From: Eunapius fragilis
Lineage: Eukaryota; Porifera; Demospongiae; Spongillida; Spongillidae
DNA: 64,000 bases
Assembly: GCA_963681505.1 (NCBI GenBank)
Contig: OY811974.1
Location: 7,742,167-7,806,166 of the forward strand
Direction: 5' to 3'
Shown here: piece by piece, positions 2,934 to 49,237 of the stretch
Position numbering within the stretch: the first letter of the stretch is position 1
How the letters are laid out: each line of letters begins with the position of its first letter
Translations under genes and position numbers: made by a program
The notes under the pieces: model-generated
What the model saw: the letters and a program-made list of their open reading frames with translations, nothing else
The model's database searches: none
What the model was told of the DNA's origin: nothing

Positions 2934-3611
2934 TTATATGATCTTTGTTCCACCCAAGCTTTCTTGAAATTCTATAGCTACATGATTTGCAGCGTTTTGG
3001 GAGTTTGCAACACTCCTTGCTTCTTTTGGATAATCCGGAAAGTTTTCAATACCATCCCAGGTCATTCTCAGAATCTTTGTTGCATTAGTGTCAGAATGTA
3101 TTTCATATTTTAGAACATCATTTACAACTTCATTGAGGTGAAGTTTAGTATTGCTGGAACATTTACTCAATAAAATCACCACTCCAGATGGTATTACAAG
3201 AATGAGAAGTATAATCAGAACCAACAGTATCAACGGAATTCCTATGATGATTGCAATGCAAAAGATCCATGCAGCATTTATTGCGCTAGCAATGACGCAA
3301 AGGGTGCAGCTATGCATTGTGACCCGTTTTTCTGGCAAACATTCTCTAATGCAATCTTTACTTTTATCTTTGTCAGTCATTCTCTTTCTCCTATTACATT
3401 TACACTTGACCTTACCATAGATGACAGGAAGAAGAATGCAACTGCAACAGATGCCACTCAATAGAATATAAATTATACATTTTGCGATATGCCACAAACT
3501 GCAAGACATGGATTTCTTGCCGCCTTCATTGTTTTTCTTTTTGTCATTCATCACCTCAATGCAATAATTGAGATACCCGTAGACAAGAAGTACAATGAGG
3601 ATGCTTGTAAC
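2934..3611 (-). CDS. P2X terminal exon: rest of TM2 and long hydrophobic C-terminal region
   Basis: Encodes 225 residues and the stop. TM2 ends near GYLNYCIEV. A lysine-rich linker follows, then a hydrophobic segment (about residues 45-70 of the exon, CIIYILLSGICCSCILLPVI), a charged cysteine-bearing loop (KVKCKCNRRKR to CIRECLPEKR), and about 45 nearly continuous hydrophobic residues that could form two more membrane helices. A soluble tail of about 75 residues ends in GGTKII. Typical P2X subunits have only two membrane helices. Confidence 0.85.
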   Translation of the reverse strand, partial: VTSILIVLLVYGYLNYCIEVMNDKKKNNEGGKKSMSCSLWHIAKCIIYILLSGICCSCILLPVIYGKVKCKCNRRKRMTDKDKSKDCIRECLPEKRVTMHSCTLCVIASAINAAWIFCIAIIIGIPLILLVLIILLILVIPSGVVILLSKCSSNTKLHLNEVVNDVLKYEIHSDTNATKILRMTWDGIENFPDYPKEARSVANSQNAANHVAIEFQESLGGTKII

Positions 3612-6600
3612 CTAAAAAAGGTACATTGGGACGTTTATCAAATATTATATCTGACTTACAGTATTAAAATATGCCAATGATGTTCCAAGCCACGTGGTCA
3701 TAGCTTGTACAGAAAACTTCCCTCCCTGAAGAGCAGATAAATATCAATTTTTATGGCACAATTCATTGTCTTACCTGTCCAGTGATTTCAATGATAACAC
3801 GTAGTCCATAGGCTTTGACAAGTGTCCGATAAACCGTTCCATTTGTCATATATCGATTTGTAGTTAATCTAAATAATAAAATGACAGCATCCAAAATTGG
3901 GCTATCCATCGTATACAAGGTACTAAATTTATACACACATTTCAATGCAAGCATAACTTTTCTTTTGGTTGTCCTGGAAATTTTTAAAAAGTATCACAAG
4001 GTGATTATTCAGTTGTGGACATGAAGTGTTACAAAACCCCTTTATAAGCTGTAGTAGTATTATTAGGATGCGCATGTGCATGGTGCTCTATTATTGGAAT
4101 AGATATTTGGTACACACTACATGGTGGCAGCGGTGTTGCTCTAGTCTAGTTTTAAGCCATGGCAACTAGCCAAGTAACACCTCCAGAGGATTTCACGTTC
4201 AACCAACCGGAAGAGTGGCCGAAATGGGTCAGACGGTTTACTCGCGACTGAATTGGACTCAAAGGGTGAAGAGAAACAGGTAAATATGCTTCTGTATACG
4301 ATGGGAGATTTAGCGGAGGATATCCTACACATGTTTAACTTGAGCGAGACGGACAAGAAGTAATACGAGGTGGTTAAACAGAAATTTGACTCTTATATTG
4401 GGAAGAAGAGGAACGTGATTTTTGAGCGGGCGAAATTCAATCGGAGAAAGCAAGAGGAGGGTGAATCTGTCGATGATTTTGTTACCAGTGTGTATGCTCT
4501 TGCAGAACATTGTGGTTTTGCTGGTCTGCGTGACGAACTGATTAGAGACAGAATTGTTGTAGGGCTGAGAGACGTGTCTCTTTCAGAGAAGCTACAATTG
4601 GACCCAGATCTAACGTTAGAAAAAACAGTGACAATGGTTCGTCAATCAGAAATGGTGAAGAAGCAGCAAGTTCTACTGAGAAGGGAAGTGGAAACGGAAG
4701 AGCAAATAGATCGGGTGCACTCTAAAGCTAAACCTGAGGATAGAGAGGTGCGACCAAGGAAAGCACAAGGGTACACACCTGGCGCAGGGGGAGGATCAGA
4801 ATACAGAGGTAAATGCTCCTATTGTGGAAGGACCCCAGGACACAGCTATGAACACTGTCCAGCAAGGGAGTCGATATGTCACAAGTGTAAGAGGCATGGC
4901 CATTGGAAAGCAATGTGTCGCACAAGGACTGCAAGTTCAGTCCAGGCTGTGTTTATCAACACACTTGGAGATGCCAACTTAGACAAATCTCCATGGAAAC
5001 AGAGTCTTAGTTTGAATGGACATCAGATACATTTCAAGCTTGACACTGGCGCAGACGTGACTGTAATTCCCCTAAGTGGGTACAAGCAGTTGAAAAACAC
5101 GACACTTCGCTATCCCAAAAAGGTCCTGTATGGTCCAGGAAATCAAAAACTGTTGGTGAGGGGTTGTTTCTTAGGAACCCTAAGACTTGGGAGAAAAGAA
5201 GTAAAGCAAGATATATATGTCCTTCCTGAACTGCAAGTACCACTACTTGGAAGACCTGCTATTGAATCTTTAAGCCTCTTGCAACGAGTGGATTTTGTGG
5301 GAGTGACAGCAGTGCAACAGAAATATCCCAAGTTGTTTGAAGGATTAGGAATAATGGGACCAGAATACAAGATACGGATGAAAGAGGGAGCCACACCATT
5401 CGCTATCACAACTCCACGAAGGGTTGCCACACCTTTATTGCCTAAAGTCAAAGCAGAGTTGAAGCGGATGGAAGAACTTGGAGTGATATCAAGCGTAGAA
5501 GAACCAACCAATTGGTGTGCAGGGATGGTGGTAGTACCAAAAGCAAATGGGGATATCAGAATTTGCGTTGACCTTACAAAGCTAAATGCGAATGTTTGTA
5601 GAGAGAATCTTCCTTTGCCAGTTGTTGATCAAATCTTAACACAACTCACTGGAGCACAATTGTTCTCTAAATTGGACGCCAATTCAGGATTTTGGCAGAT
5701 CCCATTGGCTCGTGAATCAGCCTTGTTGACAACTTTTATAACTCCGTTTGGGCGCTTCTGTTTTAATCGCTTGCCATTTGGAATCACATCAGCCCCTGAA
5801 TTGTTTCAGAAGAGAATGTCTTCGATTCTTGGGGGTATAGACGGAGTAGTTTGTTTGATTGATGACATTCTGGTTTTTGGAAAAACACGGGTGGAACATG
5901 ACAGAAGATTGGATCAAGTTCTCAAACGTCTACTTTCAGCTGGACTTACACTGAATGCAGGTAAGTGTGAATTTTCAAAGACAGAGATACGATTCCTGGG
6001 TCATGTTGTGAGTAATCAGGGGATCAGTCCAGACCCGGAAAAGATGAAGGCCATCACTCTGTTTCCGGAACCGAAGGATGTTGGTGATACTAGAAGGTTT
6101 CTTGGAATAATCAACCAGTTGAGCAAATTCTCACCTCATATCGCCCATGAAACAAAGCCTCTTCGAGATTTGCTTAGTAAAAAAAATTCGTGGGTATGGG
6201 GAACGGATCAGCAAAGAGCTTTCCAGAAATTTAAAAAGCTACTTAGTAGTTCACCACTATTGGCTTTAAATGATCCTAATCTCCCTACAGTTGTTTCAGC
6301 AGATGCATCCTCATTTGGTTTGGGTGGTGTCCTCTTACAGAAACAGAGAGATAGTAAAATACTTCCAGTCTGTTACATCTCACGAGCTATGACTCCAACA
6401 GAGCAGCGATATGCACAAATTGAAAAGGAGGCGTTAGCGCTAACCTGGGCTTGTGAACGTTTCTCAGACTATTTGCTGGGATTAAAATTCCATTTGGAAA
6501 CAGATCACAAGCCATTGGTTCCCTTGTTGAGTACGAAGAACCTGGAGGAGCTTCCCATCAGGGTACAACGTTTTCGCTTGAGACTAATGCTTCAAGTTTT

Positions 6601-9600
6601 CAATATCACATGTACCTGGCAAAAACCTCACTATTGCTGATGCGCTATCAAGAGCTCCAGTAACTCAACCTTCAGATGAGGAAAAAGCTCAACACAATGA
6701 CATAGAGGCATTCGTTCATTGGATTATCCAGGGTATCCCAGCTACTGACAAGAAACTTAACCAGATACGTCAATGTCAGAAAACTGACAGTGTATGTAGG
6801 CAGATAGCTGCGTACAGCTACAGAGGGTGGCCAGAAAAGAAAGATGTACCTGAAGCAGTTAAACCATATTTTTCAGTTGCTGGAGAGTTGAGCATTGAAA
6901 AAGGGCTACTGTTGAGAGGAAGTAGGATTGTTATTCCAGAGTCACTCCGAACAGAAATTTTAAATAAAATCCATGGTGCACATCAAGGGATAACTAAATG
7001 TAGAGAGCGAGCTCGACAGAGTGTATGGTGGCCTAACATCTCAAAAGATTTGGAGAAATTGGTGAAGAATTGTCCACAGTGCATTAAACATCAATCACAA
7101 CAGGTGGAACCGTTAATACCAACACAGTTACCTTCTTTACCATGGCAGAGAGTTGCTGCAGACATTTTCCACTGGAAAGGGGACAACTACTTGCTTATTG
7201 TCGATTTTTATTCCAGGTTTATTGAGATTGCACATTTGGATCATATGACAGCAGAGGAAGTGATAAGCTGAACAAAGTCAATATTTGCAAGACATGGTAT
7301 TCCTGAAGAACTCATTTCAGACAATGGACCACAGTTTTCATCTCACTCATTCCTGAAATTCAGTCAGGAATATGGATTTGACCATATAACGAGTAGTCCG
7401 TTATTTCCCCAAAGCAATGGAGCAGCGGAGCGAGCTGTAAAAACGATCAAGACAATGTGGAAGAAAACATCTGATCCATGTTTAGCATTGCTATTGTACA
7501 GAGCCACACCTTTGCAAAATGGCTACAGCCCAGCAGAATTGCTAATGAGTAGAAAGTTGCGAACCACTGTGCCAATCATTGAGCAGGAACGCGTTCCTAA
7601 AGTTCCAGAACAAGCTGTTGTCAAGGAAATGGAATCTCAGGTAAAGGGGTTACAGAAAATCAATTTTGATCACCGTCACAGAGCAGTAGAGTTACCAGAG
7701 TTAAACCCAGGTGACAAAGTGTGGATAACTGATCGTAAGATAGAGGGAAACGTTGTCAAAAGAGTAGCTCCCAGATCATACATCATCAACACTACCATTG
7801 GGGAATACCGCAGGAATCGACGCTTTTGACGTTGCTGAAAAGGCAGACTAAAGACAGGACTTATTCTTCTCAATCACTGAATATTAGTGAAGAAAGTGAA
7901 CTTTGGGGTACAGTGGTACAGCAAGAGTCTGAGCCTGAGCCTTTGAGAGTGGAAAATCCAGTTACTGAAGCAGAGGATGAAGAAGAAGCACCTGGGAGGG
8001 ATGAAATAGCTGAAAGCAGGAACAGTGAAACACCTGAGAGTGAGCTTGATGATCAAGACATTCAAGAGAGGTTGGGAATACAAAACGAGGAGAGTGGAAG
8101 GTCCGAAAGAGATGAAAATACTATGCACCAAAATGATGATGCCCAGAAGATAATGTTGCCGCAGGAGGAACAGGAGACAGTAGAAAATGATACAGGAGAA
8201 AGAAATGATGAGGTCAGCAATACACCCCAACAGAACGACATTGCAGAACATGAGGATTTGGTTGCACCAAGTTGGACAACTACAAGAAGTGGAAGAATAT
8301 CCAAGCCACCGGATAGATACTAATGAGAAACATTGTATTGAACATTCTAACAACATGTATTGAAAAGGGAGATGTAGTAGTATTATTAGGATGCGCATGC
8401 ACATGGTGCTCTATTATTGGAATAGATATTTGGTACACACTACATAAGCATAGCATCATATTGACAGGTCAATGACAATTAATATGCATTAACATCTTAC
8501 TCTTATGTTTTAGCTATTAATGAAGTAAGACAACTACTTGTTACTGGCTTTTGAAGGCATTGCATGCAAGAGCTGCACTATTAGCTGGGCTGTGTGGATA
8601 CATGGCTGCATCCTCCTCAGAGTGAAATGCCACACCATGCAAAGCCTGAATACTTATGAATGGTGTACTTTTTGCTTGCTCTCTTATAAAACATGCGTTT
8701 TTCACACTCTGCAATGCAGCTGAACGTGTTGGCAATGGTACTCGATTGTATGTGTCTTGATTATTGATAGAAAACATGTAGGCCGAAAACAACAAAATCC
8801 GTGATATTTATTCATCCGTGTTTTGATTTGCACACAAGTCTTTCAGCATCATTGTCTACTTTTAATATGCATTTTCATAATTGTTTGTCGATATAGGACA
8901 AGGTCAACTTCTTACATCCATACAGTGTCACATGTCTAAACAAAATATAGCCTCTAACAAGTTCAAGCCTGCCATATAGTAATAGAGTGCACGTGGCAAT
9001 GAGGCAATGGTAGTATAGAATCTATAGTAGTGAGATGGAAAGTAGGATGAGAAAAAATCTTCCTAGTCTCTGCAGAGCCACAACCACTATTGCAAACCAT
9101 ACCAAGCTGCTCAGAGTATTTATATTTGTGTCTTCTGCCTTTGGCTAAGAATTCTGCCTAGCCTTCATGGAAACCCAGTTCAACCCTATGAGGTATGACA
9201 TCCGCGAACGGTTTAAACTCTGGTCGGAGATGCAGCGCAAGCCCGGGGAAATGATTCAAGAACTGGCTGCCAGGATACGTCATGATGCTGTTAGATGCGA
9301 TTTTCCCCTTAATTAAGGACCCTCAAGACGAGGCAAAGCGTACATGCTTTATGTGATCAGTGAACAATGAAGCCATACTGAAGGCCCTATTTAAGGTGAA
9401 GGATGACGAACTCACATTCGCTATGGCAATTCAAATAGCACAGGAGACTAAGGAGGCCGCAATTGTAGCTAAGGAGACAGTATATGGAGCCAAACAGATA
9501 CAGCAAAGCCCTCCTCCCCGGTCAACCAGGTTCAGTCATCACAGCAGCAGTCTACTCCGTGGCGTCCTCATACCAGACCAGCAGCTGGTGGCACTCACAA

Positions 9601-12600
9601 GAGATAACCTATCCAAGGTGCGGCAAAACGGATCATGGATCTACGAACTGCCCTCAAAGGGACTGTATGCAACTACTGCCAGAAGATGGGGCATATTCAA
9701 GCAGCCTGTCTGAAGACGGGGAAGGAGTAGCAGCCTGTCAGAACTATTTCAAAACACTCCATTCAGACTATTAAGATCATTGATGCAATCCCACAAGTGC
9801 GAAAACCCGTTTAGATCAAAGGCCAGGATTTTACCTTTGAGGTGGACATCGGTGCGGGGGACAACTACTGTTCTGTTGAGGTGTGGACCTAGATAGGAAA
9901 ACCTACTTTGGCACCAGCTTCTTGTCATTATGAAGTTGCCAATAGACAACCCTTGGCTACTTTGGGAACATTTCAAACAATAGTATCAATGCAAGGAGTT
10001 CAGTTCACTGTCAGCAAGACAGCAAGGCTTAACCTTTTGGGACGAGATGCAATCGTCAAGCTAGGTGTGGACATTCTGGCTCTACTAGGCATACTTTCAG
10101 CAGACAAGCAATTCAATGATGAAGCTGTCCTCTCCATTTCTTCTCAACCAGACCTAGTCCTTCAACAGGCCTGTGAGCAGCTCTGCATGGAATTTCCAGA
10201 CCTTTTCAAGCCAGAGCTTGGCTGTTTGAAGGATTTTCAGCTGGAGGTCAAATTCATGCCGGATGCAAAGCCAGTGTTCTGTAAGCCAAGGGTGGTTCCG
10301 TTTGCTCTCCTGGAAGATCTGAACCAAGCATATGATGCGGCCATTGCTCAAGGAGTATGGAATCCTGTCCAATTCAATTCATACGGGACTCCGGTTGTTC
10401 CCATTCGGAAATCATGTACTCCTAATCAGGCCAAGACCGATATTCATGTGTGTGGAGACTACTCAGTGTCAGTCAACCTACAGCTGGAAGCACATCGCTA
10501 CCCAATGCACCTACCAGAGGATCTCATGTGCAAGCTGAGTGGGGGACATGGTTTCACCAAGGCAGACCTCGCTGATGCCTACAATCAAGTCATGCTAGGA
10601 CCGGAAAGCCAGAAGCGACTAGTGATGAGTGCACACAGGGGATTGCTTCTTCAACTTCGTCTCCCATTCGGGACCAGTTCGGCCCCAGACTATTTTCAAG
10701 AGATAATTGAATAGCTAATTGGCAATCTAGGAGGTGTGGCTAGCTACATGGATGACATCTTGGTCAGTGGATCTAATGCATCAGAACACCTGCAGAACCT
10801 ACGTGCCCTTATTCAACTGTCTCCAAGACAATGGACTCTATTGCCGTAAAGAGAAGTGCCTATTCGCTCAACCCTCCGTTGAATATTTGGGTTACACACG
10901 GTCTAGCAAAGGAGTTGCCAAGGGACGCAAGGTGGATGCAGTGAGGATGATACCACCCCCGGACAATGTCTCCAGTCTATGTTTCCTTCCTAGGGTCAAT
11001 CCAATTCTACAGCAAATTCCTTCCAAATCGCTACTGTTACTGATCCTCTTTACCAACTCACCAAAAAGAATGTCCAGTGGCCTGGGAGTGGGGAGCAGAA
11101 TAGCAAGCAGCCTTTCAAAGTCTCAAGGACTTACTCTGCACAGACACTGTGCTGGCGCATTTCGATCCTCCACTCCCCGTCGGAAATTTTCCTGTGTAAC
11201 TTTAGAGTGTGGCTTAGGAGCTGTGCTGTTCCACCACTATCCAGTTAGCAGTGAGCGTCCTATCGGCAATGTTTCCAAAACCCTAACGGACACTCAGAGG
11301 AGGTACAGCCAAATTCAGAAAGAGGCTGGTCATCGAAGTCAGAGCCTGAAGATCAAGGAAAGGACTACTCAGTGGAGGAAAATCTCAGCTTCACTTTCAA
11401 CTGTTCATGGTTGTCTGCTACATGGCTCCAGAGTCATCATTCCTCCTAGCCTTCAACTTCAAGTCCTTGAACTCCTGCATTTGGGTCACTTCAGGATGCA
11501 AAGGATGAAACAGCTGGTCCGTACAGCTGTGTACTGGCCAAGGATTGAGATGGATATAATGAACCAATGTTCAACATGAGCTGAACACCACAATATGTGA
11601 GCTAAAGCTCCCAATCACCCCTGGATGGTACCAGGAAAACCATGGAGCAGACTCCATCTGGATCATGCCATTAACTTCATGGGAACAAACTGGCTAGTTC
11701 TAATCGATGAGTATACATGCATCCACCCAGTCAGTTCAACTTCAACCAAGATGACTACTGAGCTACTCGAGCAGGACTTTGCTCATTTTGGTTATTCTCT
11801 CACAGTTGGTGGTGACAGATAATGCCACTTCCTTCATATCAGAAGTGTTTCAGGCTTGGTGGAATGAACGGGGTATCACTCACCTGACTGGTGCTCCGTA
11901 TTATCCAGCAACAAATGGTGCCACTGAATGCCTCGTTCAAACCTTCAAGCAAGCGCTCATCAAGTGAATATAGTCACCTCTCTCTCCAAGAGCAGCAATT
12001 CTAGAATTTCCTATGCAGTATCGCAGAACGTCACTTACGTCAGGTTACTCTCACAGTGAGATTCTGATTGGACGGCAGATCCGGTGCAAAATTGACGTCC
12101 TCGTTCCTTCCCCAGCTCACTTTGCAAAACAGGCAACAGAAACTTCTACCCTTAACTTCCCCTTCACACACCTCCACCATCCCATACACACACCTCCACC
12201 ATCCTCTACACACACATCCACCATCCTCTACACACATCCACCATCCCTACACACACCTACACCATCCCCTACACACATATCCACCATCCCTACACACACC
12301 TCCACCATCCCCCCACACACCACCATCCCCTACACACACCTCCACCATCCCCTGCAGACCTCCACCATCCCCTACACACATCCACCATCCCCTGCACACA
12401 CACCTCCACCATCCCCTACACACATCCACCATCCCCTACACACATCTCCACCATCCCCAACACACACCTCCACCATCCCCTACACACACCCCTCCATCCC
12501 CTACACACACCTCAACCATTCCCCTACACACAGCTCCACCATCCCCTATGCACACCCCACCACCATCCACTATACACTCCTCCGTCACCTTCACACACCT

Positions 12601-15600
12601 CCACTATCCCCTACACATGCCTTCACTATCCCATACACACACCTCCACCATTTGTCTGCTTGCCTGCCATATATATGGCTCTAATAACTACTTCCGTTGG
12701 CCAACATCCGGTCCAGGGCAACGCCCAAAAACGTTTTGCCCAAAAAAATTTTATGTCGATATCTAGTGACCAAGTTAAAGGCTTCAGAGTTTTTTTGCCA
12801 AGCATCACTGGACTGACTGTCAGTTTTTGACTATTGTAAGCCTTGAAACGTGGTTGAAGTTACACCTTCCCTTTCGAAGGAAGACATGGATGCTATGGAT
12901 AAGCTCATTTTGGATCACCGGTTATTTATTTAATATATAATTCATTTCGGCTTAAACGCTAGACCTTTCATAAAATGTGCAATTGTCTTTGTCCCTATCA
13001 CAACCACTGCTGCCCCGCCTTAATCATCTCCATATTTGTTTTCCACAACATGATGTATCTATTGACATTGTAAATGGAAATCAGTACTGCTGGGCTGTTG
13101 GTTTATAAAAAGTGATATTGAGCTGGAATTAGTATGATTAATTTACAAAGTATGCAAAATGCTTGCATTACATCATTATTATAAATATTAGCACAAAGTC
13201 ATGAAGGATGAAGTTCCATTGCAAGTATTACTTCGGCAATGGACCTGTCACCTGCCTAAGGTAATGTTTAGCCTGCCATTAATGTCTGCCCAAACTGTAG
13301 GCTTGGGGGAAGACATGCTGATGGCCAGGTGGGATGACAACCTCAAATACATTTCTTGGGCCTCCTTTCCCCAGCTGTCATTGCTTGCACAGCTACAGGA
13401 ATGCAGGTCCAACCCAACTCAAGGAATTTGGACCATTTGAACATAGTTTGGGAGCTAGCAGCAGGGGCTGCCATTTAGTTTGATTCACTCAAGACGGCGG
13501 GGTAAGGGATTATGTCACTGTGAGATCCAGTGGTGTCTGTCCCATCAAGCAATGTGGATATCAGCTGTGAAGTAAGGTTATGATCCCTAGTAAGCCCTTC
13601 CCCTTCTCCAGCCCTACGCCTAGATGGGCACGATGGCAAAGGTCCGCAATGCTTTCCCTCATGAGTGTGTGTCCTATAACCACATCTCCTACATGTCTGC
13701 AGGTCATCGCATGGTGGTCAAGGGAATCAAGGGAGGTTTTGGGGCAGAAAGGGCACATGACCCCACCTGAGGTGTTCAATCCCAGCCACCATCTCAATGC
13801 AGCCTGGTATACATTGGGCTCCAGGTGCAAGCCCAAACCAACAGAGGAGATCACTGATAGCCAAGAAGTCACTGTGAAGAGGTGTGGCTTGTTTGCTGGG
13901 TAGGAGGACTCCACCAGATATTTAAATAGTTTTTCTTCAAACTTCCCAGACAAAACCTTCACTATGTACTTATATATTTTATCGTCTTCTCAATGTGATA
14001 CAAAAATGTCCATATGGAAAGGAACAGAATCGCTCAGAGTATAAGGTAGATGACAGTATGGTTTAGGAAAGGTAAAAACATTGAATGGTTATACCGCAAT
14101 AACCACATTACCTCAGGTTGTAGTTCTTTATGATGAACACATAGAAATACAAATAGGAATCGTGAGTTGGAAAAGGTATCGTCACTTGATAAGGAATGAC
14201 CCAGATGACCACATTACACATTTAATACAATTTTTATGCACTCGTTACCTGATATTGTACCCATCGTATGAACTGTTGCTCCCTCCCTGTCTTGAAAATT
14301 AATAAAGCACAAAATTATATCGTCATTTGCATGCATTGATGAGTATTTGGTATACCTAGTAGCTGAATAATCAGGGGTGCAGTCAGGGTATATCCAAGGC
14401 TCATCAAGAATGCATTTCCAATGTATCTTCAAGTTAATCACAGCCCCCTATTGGAATAATGCAATGATCGTGCTGCGTATTACATACCTGTACAGAAGAT
14501 ATATTAATGTACCATTTATTAGACAATATTCACTCAATCTGATTGATTGATTGCAGGTATCAGAACACGGTAGAGAAACATCGCAAGGGACTCTTAGATC
14601 ATAGTGCCAGAGGACGAGAATTCCCCCCCCTCCCTCCCCCAAGGCACTGGCACTTAGAATCCATGACACTGGCACTTAGAATTCCTCACTTGTGGCACTT
14701 TGAATACCACCGATTAATATTCAAATATCACATGTATTTGCGTACATGATATTTGAATAACTCAATGCTCATTGATACTCTGATCATTACTAGTACACTA
14801 CTAAAAGTTATGTTTGCACATGAGTGGAAATAACCCTCACTAGCTCTAAGAACACCCCTTCTGGCACTTGGAATCTCCACTTCAAAAGCTTCTTGCATAT
14901 CAGTCTGTCAATGAAATCGTCACGAATATTTTCCATTTCATTTTGTGTACCTTTCTTTTAATTGTTTTTTTTTTACTATATGACGAATGAATAATAATAA
15001 TGAACGTTTACATATTATTACAAATGACCATGCACCAATCTACCCTAACCCTCCATTGTCATAGCTTCAGAGATAGACCTTGCAATAAAAGCAGGGCATT
15101 GGCTCGAACTAATAGGATACTTAGCCTGCCATAAATGAAATTTAGCGTGTTAGCCTTTGTTGAATTGCCTTGTGCCGCAAGTCATTCTTTATAATATTAA
15201 TCTGAATATTATCAAGATAACACATTTAGCAACATGTACATGCACTAGTCTACCGTTTGTTCAAATAACTAATAGAAGCCTCAAATGATGCGCCCTTTAC
15301 CTCCCCAGCCAGTGGCTCAATTCAGATGGCTTGACAATGTTTTCAGGTGTAGCCCAGTCAGACGTTGTTAAGTTCAAACTAAATCCTTTCTTAGCCGATG
15401 CACACGGACTTGCAAACGGTACATGAGATCAATGCCCAGAACCGAAAAGGAACACTCACGTGTCCTCCCAACCAAAAAGGAACACTCACGTGCCCTTCCA
15501 TGCCCAGTCCTACAACATCCCCTCCCATTTATAGTTCAACAGCATACACACAAAATGTTCAAAGTTACTGTTTCACGAAATCCTGGACCCATGCTGGGGT

Positions 15601-18600
15601 CTGGAGATCCGACCACTTCGTGTCTTGTATTGACTTGGCCCAATCTCGCCCCAGACCATTTTCTGTGCAGGTTCTGGGTGATTATTGGGCTCCGTCTCCA
15701 ATGCAATGTTCGTTGTTCCTCTCTTGCAGAGCTTTCATCCAGTTGCAGTACATTGGGTACTCCCGCTGCTGTTGCTTGAGCTATGGGCCACAGCCTCTTT
15801 TGTGTTCTCCTCCAACACTTCTTCAGAGCGTGATGGATGGTTCACTGAGGGCTTCAGAAACCTACGATTTCTGTGAACCTGTGATCATCAATGTCCACAA
15901 TATAGGATCAATTTGACAAACGGCCCACACAAGTACCCCTTGAAAGCCTGCATATCTTGAGCCAGCACTGGTTGTCCAATAGCAAGTGTCGGCAGAGTCT
16001 CTCTGGGGGGACCCTTTGATTGGTCCTTAGTATTTGATGCTAGCTCCTGCTTCTTGAGTTTCTCCAACACATGGGGTCAATGACAGGATCCCGTTTGTAC
16101 TCCGCCATCGGAACAACTCCCCTTGTCCGTCGGGCCAACAGTCTCTGACAAGAACTAGACCCCATACCAATGGTAGGGGTGTTCCTCCACTCTAGTAGGG
16201 CCAGGTATGGATCTTTGCTTCTCTTCCACAGCTTCTTGGCAATTTTTACCGCAGATTCTGCCGAACTTTTCCCAGGGTTTTCGCAGAATCTCATTGACTA
16301 GCAACTTCTCTTTGGGAAAAGTTGGGGAGGTTTCTTCACACACTGGACACTGACTCACTGTTATCTCGATGCGGCACCTATAGCAGGCATTACACGGCTT
16401 AACAGGAGTGGCAGTTGTTGCTGATGACATGTATGGTATTGGGAAAACAATGGAGGAAGCCAGATTCAATCACGATGCAAATCTAATGCAACTGCTGAAA
16501 GGAGCGAGGGAACAGCATCTGAAACTAAGTAAGAATAAGTGCGCCTACATTTGATGGAATTGCTGTACATTGGGCATGTCATTTCCGCAAAAGGTATTCA
16601 GCCAGACCCCTCAAAGGTAGAGGCAATATGTGGTATGCCGGAGCCAAAAGGGGACCAGCTGATGTACGAAGGTATTTGGGTATGTGTACCTTGCAAGTTA
16701 TATTGTCAGAAGAGAGCGAACCATTGAGGAGACTGACTGAATCAGATTCCGAGTTCATATGGGGAGAGAGAGAGAAGCAGGCATTCCTGACGCTGAACGA
16801 CTTGATTGCAAAACAACAACTTCTAGCATTCTGTGATGTATGAAACCAGTGGTTCTTCAATGTGATGCCAGTACCAAAGGTTTAGGAGCTACTCTTCTAC
16901 AGGAAGGGTGTCCTGTGCTGTCTGTCTCCCGTTCCCTGACAAGAAGCGGATGAAACTACGTGGCTCTGGAGCTGGAGTGTTTGGCCATTGTATTTGCCTG
17001 CCAGACATTTGACCAGTATATCTTTGGGAAACATGTTCGGGTAGAAACAGATCATAAGCCACGAGAAACCATCATTAAGAAATCCATTCTAGCTGCCCCT
17101 AGACATCTACAGAGAATGTTGCTGCAGCTTCAAATAAATTCCCTGGATGTGGTGTACCGGCCAGGTGAACAGCAGGTGGTTGCAGACACGTTGTCCAGAG
17201 CACCGTTGAGTCAGACAGCAACTGTATGGAAGCAGGATTAGGTGGTTTTCCAGCTGCAAGACATCAAGGAATCAGAATGCATTTCCATATCAGTGACCAA
17301 CGAATTGCAAATGTGAGAAAGCAGGACTTCAGGACGAGGAACCAATGGCATTGCAGAAGGTGATAGCCACTGGTAATATCTCATATACCAGAGGTGGTGT
17401 GCAGCTATTGGAATTTTCATGACACCATGACTGTTCAGGATGGTATCGTGTACAAAGCAGGGCATGTGGTCATTCCGTTGAAGATGAGACCCGATATACA
17501 GCAGCGTTTGCACTCCAGCCATCAGGGCGTCCAGTCCACAGTGAGAAGGGCTCGAGATGTGGCATACGGGCTGGACATGAGTAAGGACTGAAACTCTTCA
17601 GGCGCAAAAGACACACCAAACGGAAGTCTCAGCCATCTGTAACAACCCTTTGGACCCCAGAATGTAGTCAGAAAACTGCTTCTTTCAGACAGTTTTATCT
17701 GTAAGAACCCATCCTTTGTGTCCAGAAGACTGAACAGCTTTGCCTCTTTCAAATTTGGCCAAACATCGTCAATGGTCGGCATGTTGAAATGGTTTCTGTG
17801 AATAGCCTTGTTCAGGTCTCTTGGGTCAAGGCAAATTCTGACTTGCTTCTTGTCCGGTTTCCAAACTGTTGTAATGTTGCTGATCCAGTCCTTTGGCTGA
17901 TCCACTGAAGCTATCACTCCAGCTTTCTCTAGTTGTGCCAGCTTGCTCTTCACTTCTTTCCTCATGGTATGGGGGATCTTGCTGGCCTGTTTTGAACTGG
18001 TAGCACCTTTCATCCAAGTCAATGTCGTATTCGCCAGATAGACACCCTACACCCGTAAACAGGTCTTCAAACTGCTATAAGATCATGAGGTGGAATTGTC
18101 GAAATAGCATCTTTTTCCGGCTGTCTCCCTCCAAAACAGACATGGCCACATCCAGTAAGCGTTTTAGATGGTCTGGGTACATTTGCGGTGTCTCGCCTGG
18201 CCCCAACTTTCATGACTGGAATTCAGCTGAATTGGATAAGCCTCAATGCATTTTAGAGCAATTTCTTCACCTCATCGTGTCTGGATCGGTATGCCTAACC
18301 ACGAAACCGAAGTTTCCTTTTCCAGCAACGTTAGTAACTTTAGAGCCATCGTCTCTAATCCCATTTATTGTCCGCCCCACAAATATCGCTGTCGGCAATT
18401 TAAAAAAAAAAAGCGCTCCATTCCCGCAATCCCGATTGCGATTCTCTGCTACCAGTGTAGTGTTGAGCTCTCAGCTCAATTGTATGTAAGTTACATCAAA
18501 ATACACATGACGTATATATGCAAAACGACACAAAGAACAATATAGGACAACAGCAGTCACTGGTCTGCAACGGCTCCAATTGTGAAGGCACTGCGACAAG

Positions 18601-21600
18601 AAGCGGCGCGGCAACAATGACTGCGCGGTGCTGGTCATATGATTACATGCATCATTACATTACACATGGAAATAGTGATTAGTTCACCCGTACACGGAAC
18701 TCCATGCAAGTGCACATGTGCGCGCATTATGTCGTAGCTACGTATGCTACAGCAGTATAAGGATAGTGACCAATTATAGGTGCTTAGGGGTTTAAACGAA
18801 TAATTAAGAGCTTTGTCATGAAAATTTTGGTTCGCCGAAAATTGGTCCGGGCGGACCATTGCTTGAAATATTTTTGCGGGTAAGTAAAAATTGTCCATTT
18901 ACATTAATGTGTCGATGGTAGAACAGAGAAATCAATTCTGGCACAACTATAAACCCTAAACCCCGCTAGTGGGTGGTTAATAGTGACTGCACGGTCTTCC
19001 ATTGCCCAGCTGGCTGCGACAGGGTCGTCGGGCTACAAATGGTTCGCTAAAATTGATTCTCGGTGAGTCCTAAGGTGAAACCGGGGAACCTGCTGGTATA
19101 GGCATAGACGGCAGTTGCAAGACCGGCCCGACCGGCTACTTTTAACTTAAGGTCCTTAATTAGTGTACGAAGACCGGGCTGGTGTGGGTCCAGCGGGTAC
19201 GCGAACTATTATAGGGTGGCCCTGATGTATGCTATACTATCGCCGTTCGCGTTATTGGATTCAGTAGAGGATTGGAGCTTCGTTACTCGCCACGGTGCTT
19301 GGCCTCTGTCATTTCTCTAAAGAACAGAGGCAAAGCGCCGTGACGTGCGCTGGGGTAAATTAGATACCGCGCCTTCCTTCTTCTCAATGCTCTCCGTTGA
19401 CCGCGTAGAGTAGTGTCGCTCTACATGTAGTTGCTCCGTTTAACTACATTTAAACTGCACTTCAGGAAGCTCGTACCCGGCCAGACGGTGCTGGTGTAAT
19501 CATTATTCTGGTACGCTTGAAACATTATGCGATTATAATTATTATAGTGGACCTACGTACGCAATACAAATGTACGCATGCATGCGCAACATTGCGGGCA
19601 TAGCAACTACTAATTTCTTTAACATGTAGCATACCTTACGGGATAATTCCGTGAAACTTTGTTTTGGTGATATCATTTCAACTATCTGACCCAATGTGAA
19701 GATAGAACATCCTGGGGATTTATCCTTATCATATGTACAATTTTCCAAACCCGACTGTTCATAACCACCATAAATGTTGCTTCTGTGAAAAAAATAGGCA
19801 ACCGTGATTTTAAAAAACGCATCAAGATTTAACTCATCTACCTCGTGTACTTTAAAGAAGAGGTTGGAAATGACACCGTATTTTTAATTAGCACCGTGAA
19901 ATTTATTGCCTCAATCTTTGGATATTGTTTGCTGAATGAATAAATTTAAAAATGGCATTTAAGTGCATATAAACTATTAGCATGGTATTACCTTTCGTTA
20001 CTTTCAGCTTCTACTGGACACCAGGCAAGCACATTGCAAGTCTTAGTTGTTATGTTGCATGTTCCAGTCTGGGGACCTATATTAAAAGATATAAACATAA
20101 TTGTGCCAAACAAATCGAATTTGCAGTTGGCAAATTTTGAGTTCCAAATTAGAGAAAATTAAAGCGTACCATTTCCATTTCGCAGAACCTTTCCATTAGT
20201 GCAGTCTAAATCATTCAGACATCCTGATCCTTTCACAGAGTTCAGATCCTCTGCACATATACCAACTGACTGGTCGCAAGTAATCCACACATTGGTCATC
20301 ACAAAGAAGCTGTCATAGTCCTAACAATTGTGAGGAACATATAAATGTAGGTTTTTAAGTCCTTTATTGCGTACTACAACTGTATCATCAAGCACACATT
20401 GATAAGTGCTTGAATTTATAATTAGCCTTATATGTACATTTCAATGCGAGCGTTACAAATCGTTTGCTTGTCCTGAAAAAATTGAAAAATTATCACAAGG
20501 GAGATATTACTGGACACTGTGTCTCATATATTATTCATATTTGAGTGTGCTTTTTCTTAATACTGCATCGTGGTTGAGCACAAGTTGACCATACTCACAT
20601 GTGCTGTATTAATGCTAGCACGTGTCACGAACACACTTCATTTAAAAATAATAATAATAATATTGTATACCCACCATTTGATATATTTTAGTACCTTTTT
20701 ATATCTCAAGCATATTTGAGCAAGAATAATGACGAGGCAGTGTTAGCTTACGATCTGCAATGCACTGATAGCTATGCTGTAGACAATTAGAAATGGTATG
20801 TCTGGCCCCAAACACTGGTTGTAAATAAAAGTTTAATTTAAACGAATTCCTTGCATATGCATTGCATTGAAAGAGACAGTTCTAGTATCAAATTACTGCT
20901 TATTTTTTCCATTTGAAGTCTGCTCACTTTGAAATGCGCCTTTTAATAAAGACTGACTTTTTGTTACAGCCGCATCATTATATTCGTTTTTACTTCTTTG
21001 TTTCCTATATTGATGTTTGATCACATAAAAACCCACCTCATTTAATAGCTATGGATATTATTTTTTATAGTTTCCTGTTACTTGTAAGCAATAAAGCATT
21101 TTAATTAAGCAGAATTGCTCTTATAACTTTATGATGAATAGCCCAGTTTTGCACTGCATAATAATTTTGATTTACATTCATACATGGTGCAAATGTGTAT
21201 GCAAATATTGTATATGTGATATTTCTGCTATATATAATTCATCCTTTATACTTACTGTTGTGTTGATGTCACATATACCATATTTACTAACACATCTGCA
21301 CCACATTTGATCAGTAGTAAATACATTGTAAATGCAAATTATTATGCAATGTTGGATGCCTAAGGATCATTTGATAGAAGCTCTTTGGAGTTCACGGAAA
21401 ATCAAAAATTTGAAAACTTGAAAAAGTACCCAGAATGGTGATTTTGCTAAACACTGTCCCATATTTATTTACATACATAAAGAAGAAACACTTGCACTTG
21501 ATGCTAAAAACGCTCTCTCCTTTCTGCCCTGTTTAGATCTGCTCTGGTTTGGTCCTTAGAACGCTGGATGAAACATTTTGTAGTTTGAGCTTCCTAAGAA

Positions 21601-24600: not shown

Positions 24601-25731
24601 TACACAGCTTATGCAGCTAACTAATAATGTGATAATGGTGCACAAAATATTGGTGCATGATACCTTTTATATTTGTTTCTGTTATAGTGATGAGCAAGTT
24701 CTCTAGTCCAGTTTTACTACATTCTGTCAGGCTACTATAACAGTGTGAAATCATATGTAAGAAAACTATGTATTCCGCTATCAAATTGACAATGGCTTTT
24801 CGAAAAATTGATTTACTAATTTAAAATTATTCGGAAAAAATTATTTTCAGATCTAAATTAACCAGTAAAATTAATTTTTAACTATTCGGAAAAGCCGATT
24901 TTCATTTTCAGAGGAGGCAATAGTGCGTAAAAAGGGAGGAAACAAGAAACGGAAATGCAAAATCCTATTAGTAAACAAACATAATGTCCTACAAATGGAC
25001 TAAATATAGAACTATTACATTTTCCTTTCTTATTAAACCTTCTTCCCTTGCTGTTTACACCACTATTGCCTTCCAATCCTACATGCTACCAACTTCATAG
25101 ATAATTTTTTGCTATTAACTCTAGTTATGAATAATGACATCAACCCTATCCATTAGCACATTAATAAAAATTGCAAGAATGCAGGAACACACTTGTATGT
25201 AGAATAAATACATGATATAAAAACACAAATCACGAAACAACATACAAACTCAAATGCATTCTTCATGAAGTTTGAACTAAATAACCTTCACATTTTAAAT
25301 GGAAAATGAGCGGGCCATACAGCTCGGATAATACCCTAGACTTGGGTCTGGATGATGTAGTGGCTAGGTGAGAGGCTAACATGGAAAATGCCTCCATAGC
25401 CTCCTTCCACCTTGCTCCGTATGTTTCCACAACCAAAGGGATACAGATACACCAAGATCACAACACTTGAATTCATTAGCGTCATGTTATAATACTGTAT
25501 TCATTGTTATGCTAACAATGCAACATGCACAATCCATTTTTGTGACCAAATCTTACATCAATAATGCTGTATTCTGGAGAGTCAAACACATGTGTGTCGT
25601 TTCGCCCCTGACAGTTCTGAAGAAATGTCACATTTTCATTTGGCTTCAGAACTGAAAATCCCTTGATTTTTGAAACAGCATATCCCTCGATTTCAAAATA
25701 CTTGCGATACCCATCCACATGAAAGAGTAAA
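2934..25731 (-). CDS. P2RX-like: P2X purinergic receptor (ATP-gated cation channel), 5' exon missing
   Basis: P2X receptors are trimeric plasma-membrane channels opened by extracellular ATP. Nine exons (25557-25731, 20170-20320, 19992-20076, 19842-19931, 19635-19782, 14356-14447, 3775-3868, 3660-3725, 2934-3611) chain with GT-AG borders and matching phases into about 525 residues. Seen in order: SKIKGFSV after TM1, VFDSPEYSI, FFVMTN, TGTC and AWCPVE, NFTVLIKN, NCTY with SPGCSIF, HWKC, RTLVKAYGLR, GGKF and TM2. All ten family ectodomain cysteines have counterparts, as do the ATP-contact lysines of the KxK and LVKAYG motifs. The cytoplasmic N terminus and most of TM1 were not found. The canonical NFR motif is not seen; the 14356/3868 junction is about 15 residues shorter than in vertebrates. 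The C-terminal region is unusually long and hydrophobic. Introns are filled with retroelements. Confidence 0.9.
3660..3725 (-). CDS. P2X exon: GGKF and start of TM2
   Basis: Encodes 22 residues, GGKFSVQAMTTWLG then TSLAYFNT, matching the conserved GGKF before the pore-lining TM2. Bordered by a TTCAG acceptor and a perfect GTAAGT donor. Confidence 0.9.
3775..3868 (-). CDS. P2X exon: RTLVKAYGLR segment
   Basis: Encodes LTTNRYMTNGTVYRTLVKAY and GLRVIIEITGQ, the hallmark RTLIKAYGIR segment with its ATP-contact lysine. Ends at CAG|GTAAGA in phase 0. Confidence 0.9.
4050..4121 (+). repeat. 5' LTR of the Gypsy element
   Basis: 72 bp with short inverted ends TGTAGT and ACTACA. Matches the 3' LTR at 70 of 72 positions. 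Confidence 0.92.
4122..4135 (+). promoter_or_regulatory. Primer binding site, tRNA-Leu type
   Basis: TGGTGGCAGCGGTG follows the LTR directly. It is complementary to the 3' end of eukaryotic tRNA-Leu of the AAG-type, which ends ACCGCTGCCA plus CCA. Confidence 0.75.
8362..8372 (+). promoter_or_regulatory. Polypurine tract
   Basis: The purine run GAAAAGGGAGA lies immediately before the 3' LTR, as expected for the plus-strand primer of an LTR element. Confidence 0.75.
8373..8444 (+). repeat. 3' LTR of the Gypsy element
   Basis: 72 bp, TG...CA, followed directly by the second copy of the TAAGC target duplication. Confidence 0.92.
8450..9149. other. P2X intron sequence, nothing recognised
   Basis: AT-rich intronic DNA between two retroelement fossils. 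No exon or repeat was recognised on either strand. Confidence 0.4.
9150..12030 (+). mobile_element. Second Gypsy-type fossil, heavily decayed
   Basis: Parts in plus-strand order: gag-like region about 9165-9720, protease/linker region about 9810-10080, reverse transcriptase about 10200-10900 with a YMDD-type centre near 10747, RNase H remnant near 11150-11330, and integrase zinc-finger and core remnants about 11400-12030. It is a different lineage from the 4050-8444 element. It is badly broken, with roughly ten or more breaks, and no LTRs were recognised, so it is much older. It lies in the same P2X intron and orientation as the first element. Confidence 0.8.
12165..12655. repeat. Minisatellite of CACCTCCACCATCCCCTACA type
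   Basis: About 490 bp of imperfect tandem units of roughly 20-25 bp built from CCACCATCCC and TACACACA blocks. Proline/threonine/histidine frames here are by-products of the repeat. It directly follows the decayed Gypsy integrase region. Confidence 0.9.
12660..13195. other. P2X intron sequence, nothing recognised
   Basis: AT-rich sequence between the minisatellite and a LINE remnant. No exon or repeat family was recognised. Confidence 0.4.
13200..13970 (-). pseudogene. Non-LTR retrotransposon remnant, C-terminal region (family 1)
   Basis: The minus strand encodes a cysteine/histidine cluster (ALRWWLGLNTSGG, CPFCPK, DHHAMTCRHVGD, RAHLGVGLEKG) and, further on, LGWTCIPVAVQAM. This order resembles the region after the reverse transcriptase in LINE-like elements common in corals and sponges, where a zinc-knuckle-like cluster precedes a PD-(D/E)XK-type nuclease. 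The second part carries several stops. The class call is inference from remembered family patterns. Related remnants are at 24130-24540 and 25308-25455. Confidence 0.55.
14356..14447 (-). CDS. P2X exon: WxC...C segment
   Basis: Encodes GAVINLKIHWKC and YPDCTPDYSATR, matching GGxIGIxIxWxCDLD...CxPxYSFRR and providing cysteines 9 and 10. The 3' border is placed at AG|GTATAC because this gives the phase needed by the next recovered exon. An alternative longer exon, or a missed small exon in the following 10.5 kb intron, is possible. Confidence 0.8.
14448..15400. other. P2X intron sequence, nothing recognised
   Basis: AT-rich intron sequence with a short C-run near 14624-14640 and a small direct repeat built on TGGCACTTAGAAT near 14650-14690. 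No exon was recognised. Confidence 0.4.
15500..18250 (-). mobile_element. Third Gypsy-type fossil, internally rearranged
   Basis: Pieces lie on both strands. Minus strand 15570-16410 carries an integrase core and a tail with TRSGRISRP. Plus strand 16410-17590 carries the second half of a reverse transcriptase, RNase H (LETDHKP-like motif near 17040) and an integrase zinc finger. Minus strand 17590-18060 carries the first half of a reverse transcriptase (RICLDPRDLNKAI, LPFGVSFAPEEFQ). The strand switching indicates an internal rearrangement after insertion. It is broken, with several breaks besides the rearrangement. The outer limits are approximate and LTRs were not established. Confidence 0.7.
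18251..19634. other. P2X intron sequence with a GC-richer block
   Basis: No gene recognised. The segment 18960-19480 is GC-richer than its surroundings but lacks long frames and did not match rRNA or tRNA signatures. A stretch near 18818-18870 shares TGAAAATTTTGGT and GGGCGGACC with 57870-57910, so it belongs to a dispersed repeat. Confidence 0.4.
19635..19782 (-). CDS. P2X exon: NC...PGC and LGQIV segment
   Basis: Encodes ENCTYDKDKSPGCSIF and TLGQIVEM, matching the family C...PxCPIFRLGDI signature with conserved cysteines 7 and 8. Phase 2 in and phase 0 out, with a good GTATGC donor. Confidence 0.92.
19842..19931 (-). CDS. P2X exon: NFTVLIKN segment
   Basis: Encodes KQYPKIEAINFTVLIKN followed by TVSFP, the family segment carrying a threonine and a lysine that contact ATP in known structures. 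Phase 2 in and phase 2 out. Confidence 0.88.
19992..20076 (-). CDS. P2X exon: second part of the cysteine-rich head
   Basis: Encodes GPQTGTCNITTKTCNV and AWCPVEAE, matching the family TGxC...C...AWCPxE signature with the last three head cysteines. Phase 1 in and phase 2 out. Confidence 0.9.
20170..20320 (-). CDS. P2X exon: first part of the cysteine-rich head
   Basis: Encodes DYDSFFVMTNVWITC and then three of the six head-domain cysteines (ICAED, SGCLND, LDCTN), ending in GN. Phase 0 in and phase 1 out, which agrees with both neighbours. Confidence 0.88.
20321..22139. other. P2X intron sequence, AT-rich
   Basis: Intron between the exons ending at 20320 and starting at 25557. No exon, repeat array or transposon was recognised in this part. 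Confidence 0.4.
22140..22620. repeat. Inverted pair of dispersed repeat family B
   Basis: A segment at about 22150-22265 (minus orientation) and another at about 22540-22615 (plus) share CTATTAGTG-, TTAGATAGCGACAA and ATCCGATTCA blocks as reverse complements. A third copy lies at 37955-38060. The pair may be the two ends of one foldback element. Confidence 0.65.
22860..23240 (+). repeat. Dispersed repeat family C, copy 1
   Basis: About 350 bp including CCAGTGGACACCCTGCTAGC and CTTCATCAAGTTCCCTT matches the reverse complement of 36430-36790. Reading frames on both strands are partly preserved between the copies, which may reflect a former coding end of an element or simply high nucleotide identity. 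Confidence 0.7.
23485..23508 (+). repeat. Terminal fragment of MITE family A
   Basis: Matches the first 24 bases of the family A terminal repeat (ACAAGTAATAAAAACATTCT) and then diverges, so it is a truncated end. Confidence 0.55.
24130..24540 (+). pseudogene. Non-LTR retrotransposon remnant, nuclease-like C terminus (family 1)
   Basis: The plus strand encodes PAAFDIKVINPLNL, then in another frame EAKHSRNDEACALRGWSC and ISLVLEVFGGWGNEAI, followed by a degenerate end. The same order is seen in the remnants at 13200 and 25308. The D-x-K/V pattern is compatible with a PD-(D/E)XK-type nuclease strand. At least one frame change is present. It lies in a P2X intron, opposite in orientation to the gene. 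Confidence 0.55.
24896..25115. repeat. Diverged copy of MITE family A
   Basis: Left part GGAGGCAATAGTG-GTAAAAAG-GGAGGAAACAAG and right part CCTTGCTGTTTACACC, TTGCCTTCCAATCCTACAT and CTACCAACTT mirror each other, as in the intact element at 62538-62823. Confidence 0.6.
25308..25455 (-). pseudogene. Non-LTR retrotransposon remnant (family 1), short
   Basis: The minus strand encodes ICIPLVVETYGARWKEAMEA and FSMLASHLATTSSRPKSRVL, matching the extreme C-terminal segment of the remnants at 13200-13440 and 24240-24460. Only this segment is present. It sits 100 bp from the first recovered P2X exon. Confidence 0.55.
25557..25731 (-). CDS. P2X exon: end of TM1 and start of ectodomain
   Basis: Begins after a TTCAG acceptor and ends at GAT followed by GTAAGA. 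It encodes HVDGYRKYFEIEG, equivalent to the family KGYQ region, then SKIKG (the KxK ATP-contact pair) and VFDSPEYSIID. The start phase requires two nucleotides from an upstream exon that was not identified. Confidence 0.8.
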
Positions 25732-25837: not shown

Positions 25838-26029
25838 CAATTCCATCCTTAAAGAGATGGAGTCCTGCACCTATTGCCACATCAGTTATGTATTTTATCA
25901 CACTTATGAACCCTATACACCCGTTCGTGTCAATTAACTTTCGGTAACCCTCAGGGTTAAGAACGCGTAAGACAGAACGAAGGAGCGTATCCTTGGCGTC
26001 AAAATTGCAACGTACCCGAAGGAGTCCAT
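25838..26029 (-). other. Exon-like open stretch, unassigned
   Basis: One minus-strand frame is open for 64 codons and ends at a possible donor G|GTTAGC. It reads LLRVRCNFDAKDTLLRSVLR, then LNPEGYRKLIDTNG, then a hydrophobic segment CIGFISVIKYITDVAIGAGL followed by HLFKDG. The place and the hydrophobic segment suit a missing P2X first exon, but the phase does not fit the exon at 25557-25731 and no family N-terminal YxTxK motif is present. Identity unknown. Confidence 0.3.
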
Positions 26030-26522
26030 TTTGCTATTGGATTCTTTAGATCGTTAAATAATACTTACTCTTACAACCGATCCTTGTACTAGTTACCATT
26101 TGTAGCCTGGCTGATGTTTAGAACACCTTCAGGCTTGTTCAAAAAATAAGACTACAGTTCACTTGGATCATGTGAGAAGCTATTGAATATAATTATGTAT
26201 ATGAATATGATTATAGTCGCAAAGTACGATAAAAGAATGCTGGCGGGGACCAGAAACTAAAGCCGGATTGATTTGGTGTAGCCTAACTAGGTTTGATCAC
26301 GTCCGTGACTGTCAGGAAAAATGGATACTTGAATTAGTTCGCGAAAAAGCGTGGACCGCCAAAAATTTGAGGTCCACTTCCGGTCAGCTGTGCAAGGAAC
26401 AATCTTCCCGGGAACCTGCAGTATTCATACACCCACAAGTTAGCGACAATTTGATAACAAGATGTACTCTGGCCGCGGACCGTTTTTATATTTTACACTG
26501 CATAATCATTTGGATTTACATT

Positions 26523-26850
26523 GTATCAGAAATTTCGCTAGAACTTCCATATACGATTTGACCCCGACTATGAATATCATTAAAAACACGTGACCCTGTT
26601 GTAACGACACTTCTGATGATCGGATCGCTTAGCTGGTTGTTTTATTCGAACGATAATATGACAGTGATCAGTGAGTAATTTCGCCATTTGTTACATGTCT
26701 CAAAACCGCGCAGTTATAGAGAACAAAAGAGTACTGCCCGTACTCGTACCCAGTTCAAGAATAATCCTCCCTCTCCTCCATCTTCTTGACCACACATAAC
26801 TTAGGATAGGAACACATTTAAAGAATGTAAATTTCCCCAATAACTGGGGG
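26523..26850 (+). repeat. Dispersed repeat family D, copy 1
   Basis: About 330 bp matches 61955-62282 in the same orientation. Shared blocks are ACTTCCATATA-GATTTGACC, CCGACTATGAAT, GATCGGATCG, GTACTGCCCGT-CTCGTACCC and CATAACT-AGGA-AGGAACA. Identity is roughly 75-80 percent by eye. The nature is not established; it has no long frame. Confidence 0.7.
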
Positions 26851-26956
26851 GTGACGTCTCTAGAAGGCAGCATGCACCTTTTATACCTAGAATTAAAACA
26901 GCGTGACTCACAGAACACGCAGCAAATAAAATTCGGTCCGAATCGGTTCATAGTAT

Positions 26957-27231
26957 ACAAGTAACCAAAAACCTTCTCTATGAGAAAGTTGGTGGGATAT
27001 AGGATTTGAAGGCAATGGTGGTGTAAAAAGCAAGGAAACAAGGGTCTGTAATAGTAAGGGAAAATGTAATAGTCCTATTTAGCCCGTTGCAGCATATACC
27101 ATGTTCGTGTGCTAAATATGAGACTATGACATTTTCCCTTACTATTACAGACCCTTGTTTCCTTGCTTTCTAAACTATATCTCACCAACCTTGTCATGAA
27201 GATCTCATAGAGAATGTTTTTAGTTACTTGT
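26957..27231. repeat. MITE family A copy, 275 bp
   Basis: Terminal ACAAGTAA and TTACTTGT with inner inverted blocks GAGAAAGTTGGTGGGATATA and GCAAGGAAACAAGGGTCTGT. The arms are imperfect, so this copy is older than the one at 62538. Confidence 0.8.
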
Positions 27232-43100: not shown

Positions 43101-43240
43101 GAGCCCTAAGTCATTTTTTAAACCTCTCAATAGTGCACAGTCTGGATTTGAGCATATGCAGTAGAGGCATGAGATGCCATTGACATGTAGCAGAGGCCAT
43201 AGCACTCTTCTGGATGTGCTTTAAGTGTGTGTGTGTGTGT

Positions 43241-49132: not shown

Positions 49133-49237
49133 GTGTTTTGCATGGAGTCCTACAACAGGGCCAGTCTGGAACATGAACAGCTGTTGATATTGGTCACCAG
49201 CACTTTTGGTAGTGGTGATCCACCAGCAAACGGCGAG
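49133..49237 (+). CDS. NOS exon: FMN domain, TSTFGSGD loop
   Basis: 35 codons, phase 0 at both ends, encoding [20 protein letters not shown] and [15 protein letters not shown], close to vertebrate VCMDEY...LLLVVTSTFGNGD. It is the first NOS exon recognised. Confidence 0.92.

Follow-up and report, generated by a model that had tools for sequence, protein, structure and literature searches.

P2X receptors are textbook two-helix channels, in which two membrane segments are usual rather than defining, and in any P2X subunit the chain that follows the second membrane helix (TM2) is cytosolic. In the genome of the freshwater sponge Eunapius fragilis, an open frame at positions 2934-3611 (minus strand) of the 64,000-nucleotide stretch analysed here (the window, corresponding to C4:7742167-7806166, where C4 is chromosome 4) runs from the middle of TM2 through further hydrophobic stretches and a Lys/Arg- and Cys-rich loop into a polar end, and it raises the question whether a P2X subunit can carry additional membrane segments. 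The frame forms the terminal exon of a P2X gene, one of two in this genome, and we give a probability of about 0.5 to the reading that its tail re-enters the membrane as hairpins, where it may anchor TM2 or set the location of the receptor. Should a lineage possess conserved extra membrane segments, it would show how the tail of a channel can be rebuilt, and it would offer a natural test of what the tail contributes to gating and to desensitisation. Purinergic signals are described as making a freshwater sponge contract without nerves (PMC11883242), and an ATP receptor of unusual build in a sponge of this kind therefore bears on that coordination.

P2X loci of Eunapius fragilis

According to a splice model with exon boundaries placed by hand, the frame corresponds to the terminal exon, number 11, in a P2X gene, and the coordinates of the original prediction coincide exactly with this exon. 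It is open for 225 codons, with an AG preceding the 5' end and a TAA closing the 3' end. The same gene has nine more exons inside the window, up to position 25731 (Table 1), and exons 2 to 11 are connected across GT-AG introns (9 of 9) into one open frame of 539 amino acids. Two of the introns contain remnants of mobile elements: a retroelement at 4140-8410, between exons 8 and 9, with protease- and reverse-transcriptase-like frames that were judged by eye and of which the longest comprises 758 codons (4364-6640, plus strand), and a reverse transcriptase fragment at 17528-18046 (minus strand; PF00078, E = 4.1e-10), between exons 6 and 7. Additional long frames at 9893-11576 are similar in appearance to those of the former element.

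Table 1 Exons and tail segments of the window gene, and related copies on C4 (window positions unless a C4 coordinate is given)
Feature	Position	Strand	Basis or remark
P2X exon 2 (ectodomain start, KxKG ATP-site motif)	25557..25731	-	splice model; match C4:7767723-7767896
P2X exon 3	20170..20320	-	splice model; PF00864 match
P2X exon 4	19992..20076	-	splice model; ectodomain search match
P2X exon 5 (NFTVLIKN, ATP-site Thr)	19842..19931	-	splice model; ectodomain search match
P2X exon 6	19635..19782	-	splice model; PF00864 match
P2X exon 7 (WKCILD)	14356..14447	-	splice model; paralogue counterpart in L010
P2X exon 8 (GYNIR, counterpart of NFR motif)	14249..14290	-	splice model
P2X exon 9	3775..3868	-	splice model; PF00864 E = 2.9e-10 jointly with exon 10 and start of exon 11
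P2X exon 10 (TM2 start, GGKFSVQ)	3660..3725	-	splice model; PF00864 match
P2X exon 11 (TM2 end, entire C-terminal tail, TAA)	2934..3611	-	splice model; 59% identity to C4:2887891-2888484
TM2 second half (VTSILIVLLVYGYLNYCI)	3558..3611	-	hydropathy; coordinates hand-counted from alignment
Hydrophobic block H3 (LWHIAK...VIY), ~27 aa	3417..3497	-	KD19 maximum 2.58; coordinates hand-counted from alignment
H3-H4 loop, Lys/Arg- and Cys-rich	3297..3416	-	13 K/R, 5 D/E
Hydrophobic block H4/H5, central GIP, ~44 aa	3165..3296	-	KD19 maximum 3.63
Polar C-terminal segment	2937..3164	-	8 K/R, 10 D/E
Breakpoint in intron 1	27292 (C4:7769458)		comparison with truncated third copy
Complete P2X paralogue	C4:2870568-2888499	+	splice model
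Lone exon 1 copy	C4:7119603-7119713	+	genome search with paralogue exon 1
Third P2X copy (L018/L020)	exon 1 C4:6729756-6729866; exon 2 C4:6727428-6727601	-	genome search with paralogue exon 1

The genome (218,937,333 bases in 24 sequences) yielded five matches to the family profile PF00864, all within two loci on C4, and a query made of the ectodomain and TM2 yielded 19, distributed over the window gene (9), a second gene (8), a truncated copy (1) and C1 (1; E = 0.295). The second gene is a complete paralogue of 11 exons, with GT-AG borders at 10 of 10 introns and with the layout and phases of the window gene plus an exon 1; its product comprises 597 amino acids when counted from the ATG chosen as start. 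As duplicates, the two genes lie fairly close to each other in sequence, with 73% DNA identity over the 3' region and 65.5% amino acid identity in exon 2. The proteins encoded by the last exons are 59% identical by BLAST (query residues 1-217) and 56% identical by alignment, and the tails without TM2 are 53% identical over 182 aligned codons; the evidence on the tail given below comes from comparing a single gene pair in a single genome.

The assignment to the P2X family made in the original prediction is borne out. The paralogue matches PF00864 with an E-value of 4.8e-74 (profile positions 9-346 of 361, the best stretch being paralogue residues 57-406), a draft join of the window gene lacking exons 1, 7 and 8 reaches 2.5e-53, and TM2 of the window gene together with the preceding strand reaches 2.9e-10. 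All 10 cysteine columns of the P2X1 ectodomain hold Cys in both proteins. At the positions which we take to form the ATP site (the two Lys of KxKG, a Thr, Asn-Phe-Arg and a Lys), the paralogue keeps six of seven residues, namely the equivalents of Lys68, Lys70, Thr186, Asn290, Arg292, and Lys309; the Phe of the NFR motif is replaced by Thr in the paralogue and by Ile in the window gene, and the KIKG of the window protein aligns to the KLKG columns of the paralogue. Each subunit would have the standard pair of pore helices together with an ectodomain that binds ATP. The YxxxK trafficking motif is replaced in the two genes (Y-C-I-E-V and Y-Y-I-E-V after TM2), as is the TM2 aspartate (Ile in both proteins), so that channel function is uncertain; OtP2X is described as having neither feature, and neither is universal (PMC3853471). 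P2X-like sequences are contained in a transcriptome of E. fragilis (PMC11883242), which indicates that some P2X of the species is transcribed, a statement that applies to the species rather than to either gene or its tail.

No exon 1 of the window gene was found in the window: a permissive search remained at chance level among the matches listed (best E = 1.2), and a genome search with exon 1 of the paralogue found none there. The same genome search detected a lone exon 1 copy, with no exon 2 in the 20 kb examined around it, and a third P2X copy, whose exon 2 is 88% identical to that of the window gene and after which no further exon was found in the 20 kb examined or in the ectodomain search. 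This third copy (C4:6727428-6729866) is probably a truncated duplicate. Window positions 25865-27292 match it at 89%, and this match stops at the point where the match of the lone exon 1 copy starts; when both are aligned with the third copy, similarity reaches up to C4:7121036 for the lone exon 1 copy and runs from 27292 onwards for the window, the two meeting at a shared ATG. The lone exon 1 is located ~648 kb from exons 2 to 11 and on the opposite strand. The simplest reading of this arrangement would be a single inversion that spans ~648 kb and has a breakpoint inside intron 1, either real or made by the assembly. No N is present in the window or in the 20 kb examined around the other end of the breakpoint; the inversion may nevertheless be an artefact, because the published description of the assembly gives a contig N50 of 0.49 Mb, 802 gaps and many joins made during curation (PMC12616128). 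A real inversion would mean that this haplotype carries a disrupted window gene, which would make the complete paralogue the proper object of study.

Apart from the P2X gene, the window contains pieces of a flavodoxin and NAD-binding reductase-type gene at 49133-54437 (plus strand; PF00258, E = 4.3e-05, just under the cut-off, and PF00175, E = 7.4e-10), perhaps coding for a nitric oxide synthase or a P450 reductase, and a minisatellite at 41975-43161 that is open over long frames in either strand, with GYGTGPCSE and SLHYMVLSH repeats. Elsewhere in the genome, silicatein-like active sites (CGASYAF) with Ser replacing the catalytic Cys were found at three places (L052 on C10, L060/L068 on C5, and L065 on C3) out of 30 loci of the cathepsin family that were inspected, as expected in a demosponge.

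Layout and constraint of the C-terminal tail

In both genes, two further hydrophobic blocks above threshold, designated H3 and H4/H5, follow TM2; this is a result of hydropathy, and their membrane insertion is predicted. The Kyte-Doolittle maxima over 19 residues for TM2, H3 and H4/H5 are 1.78, 2.58 and 3.63 in the window protein and 1.86, 2.53 and 3.25 in the paralogue, and the maximum of the tail was equalled in 0 of 2000 shuffles of the former and in 1 of 2000 of the latter. H3 has a core of ~20 residues, and H4/H5 is uninterrupted over ~44 residues, with 54 covered at threshold. The blocks of the two proteins coincide in the alignment, and the Gly-Ile-Pro in the middle of H4/H5 is invariant. 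By a crude insertion score, H4/H5 comprises two segments in the window protein but a single one in the paralogue, and since no separate H4 is found in the latter, H4/H5 may be a single span. The linker between TM2 and H3 contains five Lys/Arg and two Asp/Glu in both proteins, the H3-H4 loop 13 versus 5 in the window protein and 8 versus 4 in the paralogue, and the near-neutral C-terminal segment 8 versus 10 and 12 versus 12, respectively. An AlphaFold model of the tail built from the two sequences (mean pLDDT 49.2, pTM 0.29) was set aside as too poor for topology.

The original prediction had described three hydrophobic stretches that are separated by Lys/Arg- and Cys-rich loops and followed by a soluble tail. 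The in-frame run from TM2, the H3-H4 loop and the polar end agree with this description, but the three stretches are better read as two blocks, the second of which perhaps forms two helices, and H4/H5 contains just the Gly-Ile-Pro in place of a basic loop. The more general proposal of a membrane-embedded C-terminal region gains support from the hydropathy profile and from its conservation in the second gene, insertion itself being predicted.

The aligned tails differ at 151 of 549 bases, and neither contains a stop codon. Neutral simulations with a simple substitution model, applied to this one sequence pair and evaluated by one-sided, uncorrected P values, produced a mean of 4.9 stops in the tail when started from the window sequence, with none in 0.6% of 5000 runs; for the hydrophobic blocks (71 codons), in which 20 amino acid differences include no gain of Asp, Glu, Lys or Arg, the neutral mean of such gains was 4.2-4.3 (P ~ 0.008 in either direction). 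The count of 20 amino acid changes as such is not below neutral (22.3-22.6, P = 0.18-0.21). The stop codon and charge simulations speak against the explanation that the tails are alike merely through recent duplication (P = 0.006-0.008), a result that stands against codon-based dN/dS values near 1: the ratio for the tail is 0.79 with NG86, 0.99 with YN00 and 1.02 by maximum likelihood (ML), compared with 0.43 for the ectodomain. Within the tail, H3 has a dN/dS of 0.36 (NG86) or 0.75 (ML), H4/H5 of 0.93 and the C-terminal segment of 1.12 (both NG86); for the H3-H4 loop (23 codons), NG86 gives no dS and the ML estimate is saturated, with a ratio of 5.3. Amino acid identity to the paralogue is 77% in H3 (31 codons), 65% in H4/H5 (48 codons) and 43% in the C-terminal segment (68 codons), the least conserved part being the H3-H4 loop with 35% over its 23 aligned codons. 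Gaps of whole codons were rejected as proof of the frame, as protein alignment produces them by construction; a plain DNA alignment of the tails has gaps of 12, 1, 35, 3, 6, and 12 bases. With no stop codon in either tail and no charged residue gained in the blocks, the tail looks like real coding sequence, and it seems to be constrained in frame and hydrophobicity and hardly in its exact sequence.

Membrane topology and alternative readings

In the reading that we favour, the chain would return to the membrane after TM2: H3 would dip into it as a shallow or re-entrant hairpin, H4/H5 would form a hairpin of two helices, and both the charged, cysteine-rich H3-H4 loop and the polar end would face the cytosol. 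The trimeric channel would thereby gain an extra ring of membrane segments. By analogy with the cysteine anchor of P2X7, the tail would most probably fasten TM2 to the lipid at its inner end and so slow desensitisation or keep the receptor in a particular membrane. The argument draws on the positive-inside rule for membrane proteins. If H3 crosses the bilayer, the most basic loop comes to lie outside, and if H3 dips into it and H4/H5 forms a hairpin, the basic loops lie inside; cytosolic hairpins fit better because five helices would place the Lys/Arg-rich loop after H3 outside the cell. A point against them is that H3 is short for a hairpin.

The original prediction had considered a P2X with five helices. 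If H3, H4 and H5 each crossed the membrane, the H3-H4 loop would be extracellular and the C-terminus would end outside the cell; the ~20-residue core of H3 suits one span, the ~44 residues of H4/H5 leave room for two, the crude score picks both halves of H4/H5 in the window protein, and the C-terminal segment of this protein contains an N-x-T sequence (NAT). We nevertheless regard this topology as unlikely, since it would expose a strongly basic loop in both proteins, contrary to the positive-inside rule, the score gives no H4 of its own for the paralogue, and the NAT is absent there at the corresponding place. Doubts of another kind concern the use of the tail, as transcripts could end or be spliced before H3, leaving the remainder as decaying 3' sequence of a gene pair that is turning into pseudogenes. 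The dN/dS near 1, the neutral number of amino acid changes in the hydrophobic blocks, an exon 1 that is detached from the rest of the window gene and the reduction of the third copy to exons 1 and 2 would all be in accord with such a decay, which is however quite improbable in view of two tails devoid of the stop codons expected, of blocks that gained no charged residue, and of the fact that TM2 is completed only in exon 11, so that a normal P2X needs at least the start of this exon.

The original prediction had also considered a fusion with another small membrane protein, and the capture of such a coding sequence by a P2X gene, in the way P2X7 obtained its ballast domain, would have a precedent in P2X7 itself (PMC7016195) and would agree with the resemblance of the tail to a compact module. 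A donor was found neither by BLAST of the sponge genome with the tail, which retrieved only the P2X paralogue (next match E = 2.64), nor in Pfam, in which no family scored above cut-off on either tail, nor in the PDB, for which a profile of the two tails gave four matches up to E = 10, none of them below E = 0.88 and none a P2X7 chain. The tail moreover shares one exon with half of TM2, and no intron marks the supposed joint, which makes a fusion very unlikely. The Pfam matches below cut-off (OPT with E = 0.015, PE-PPE, Sigma_reg_N and TMEM154 for the window tail; TcpE and DUF2070 for that of the paralogue) were rejected as composition because they are below the cut-offs and differ between the two tails, and a match to DUF1129 (E = 0.031) was rejected likewise. 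Pattern searches of viral contigs (140 matches) and prokaryote genomes (102 matches) revealed no relatives, as expected for an animal gene.

Comparison with known systems

On the strength of the genome sequence alone, the object to be compared is a pair of predicted sponge P2X genes with a common hydrophobic tail. Among the matches listed for the open-access literature, the titles and the beginnings of the abstracts describe no P2X with extra membrane segments. The tail of P2X7, whose cysteine anchor is palmitoylated, is the closest point of reference. The best PDB matches of the TM2 region of the window protein are P2X7 chains. In P2X7, as in the sponge proteins, a long cysteine-containing tail is encoded after TM2; it is described as consisting of an intracytoplasmic cysteine anchor, linked to the lack of desensitisation, and a zinc-binding ballast (PMC7016195), whereas the sponge tail has two long hydrophobic blocks. 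The zinc-binding ballast (ZCD) was not found in the sponge tail, either among the PDB matches of the tail profile or among Pfam families above cut-off. By analogy, the cysteine anchor is the nearest precedent for function, not for sequence.

In layout only, the tail resembles the hairpin proteins of the Reticulon and REEP families. These have two long hydrophobic segments with a charged loop between them, and both of their ends are thought to be cytosolic; neither family appears among the Pfam matches of either tail.

The P2X proteins of Ephydatia muelleri (Em0004g77a and Em0004g666a), as well as vertebrate P2X1 and P2X4, have the P2X profile, the cysteines and the KxKG motif in common with the E. 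fragilis proteins. E. muelleri is also a freshwater sponge, its genes are, judging by their names, perhaps likewise located on chromosome 4, and extra membrane segments are not mentioned for them in the text covered from the study concerned (PMC11883242). Em0004g77a and Em0004g666a may have the same tail as the window gene. As a tentative proposal, freshwater sponges could possess a third structural class of P2X, in which two to three extra membrane-embedded segments per subunit surround the trimeric pore, so that a channel has 12 to 15 segments where the usual number is 6; these additions would determine its gating, its desensitisation or the membrane in which it resides.
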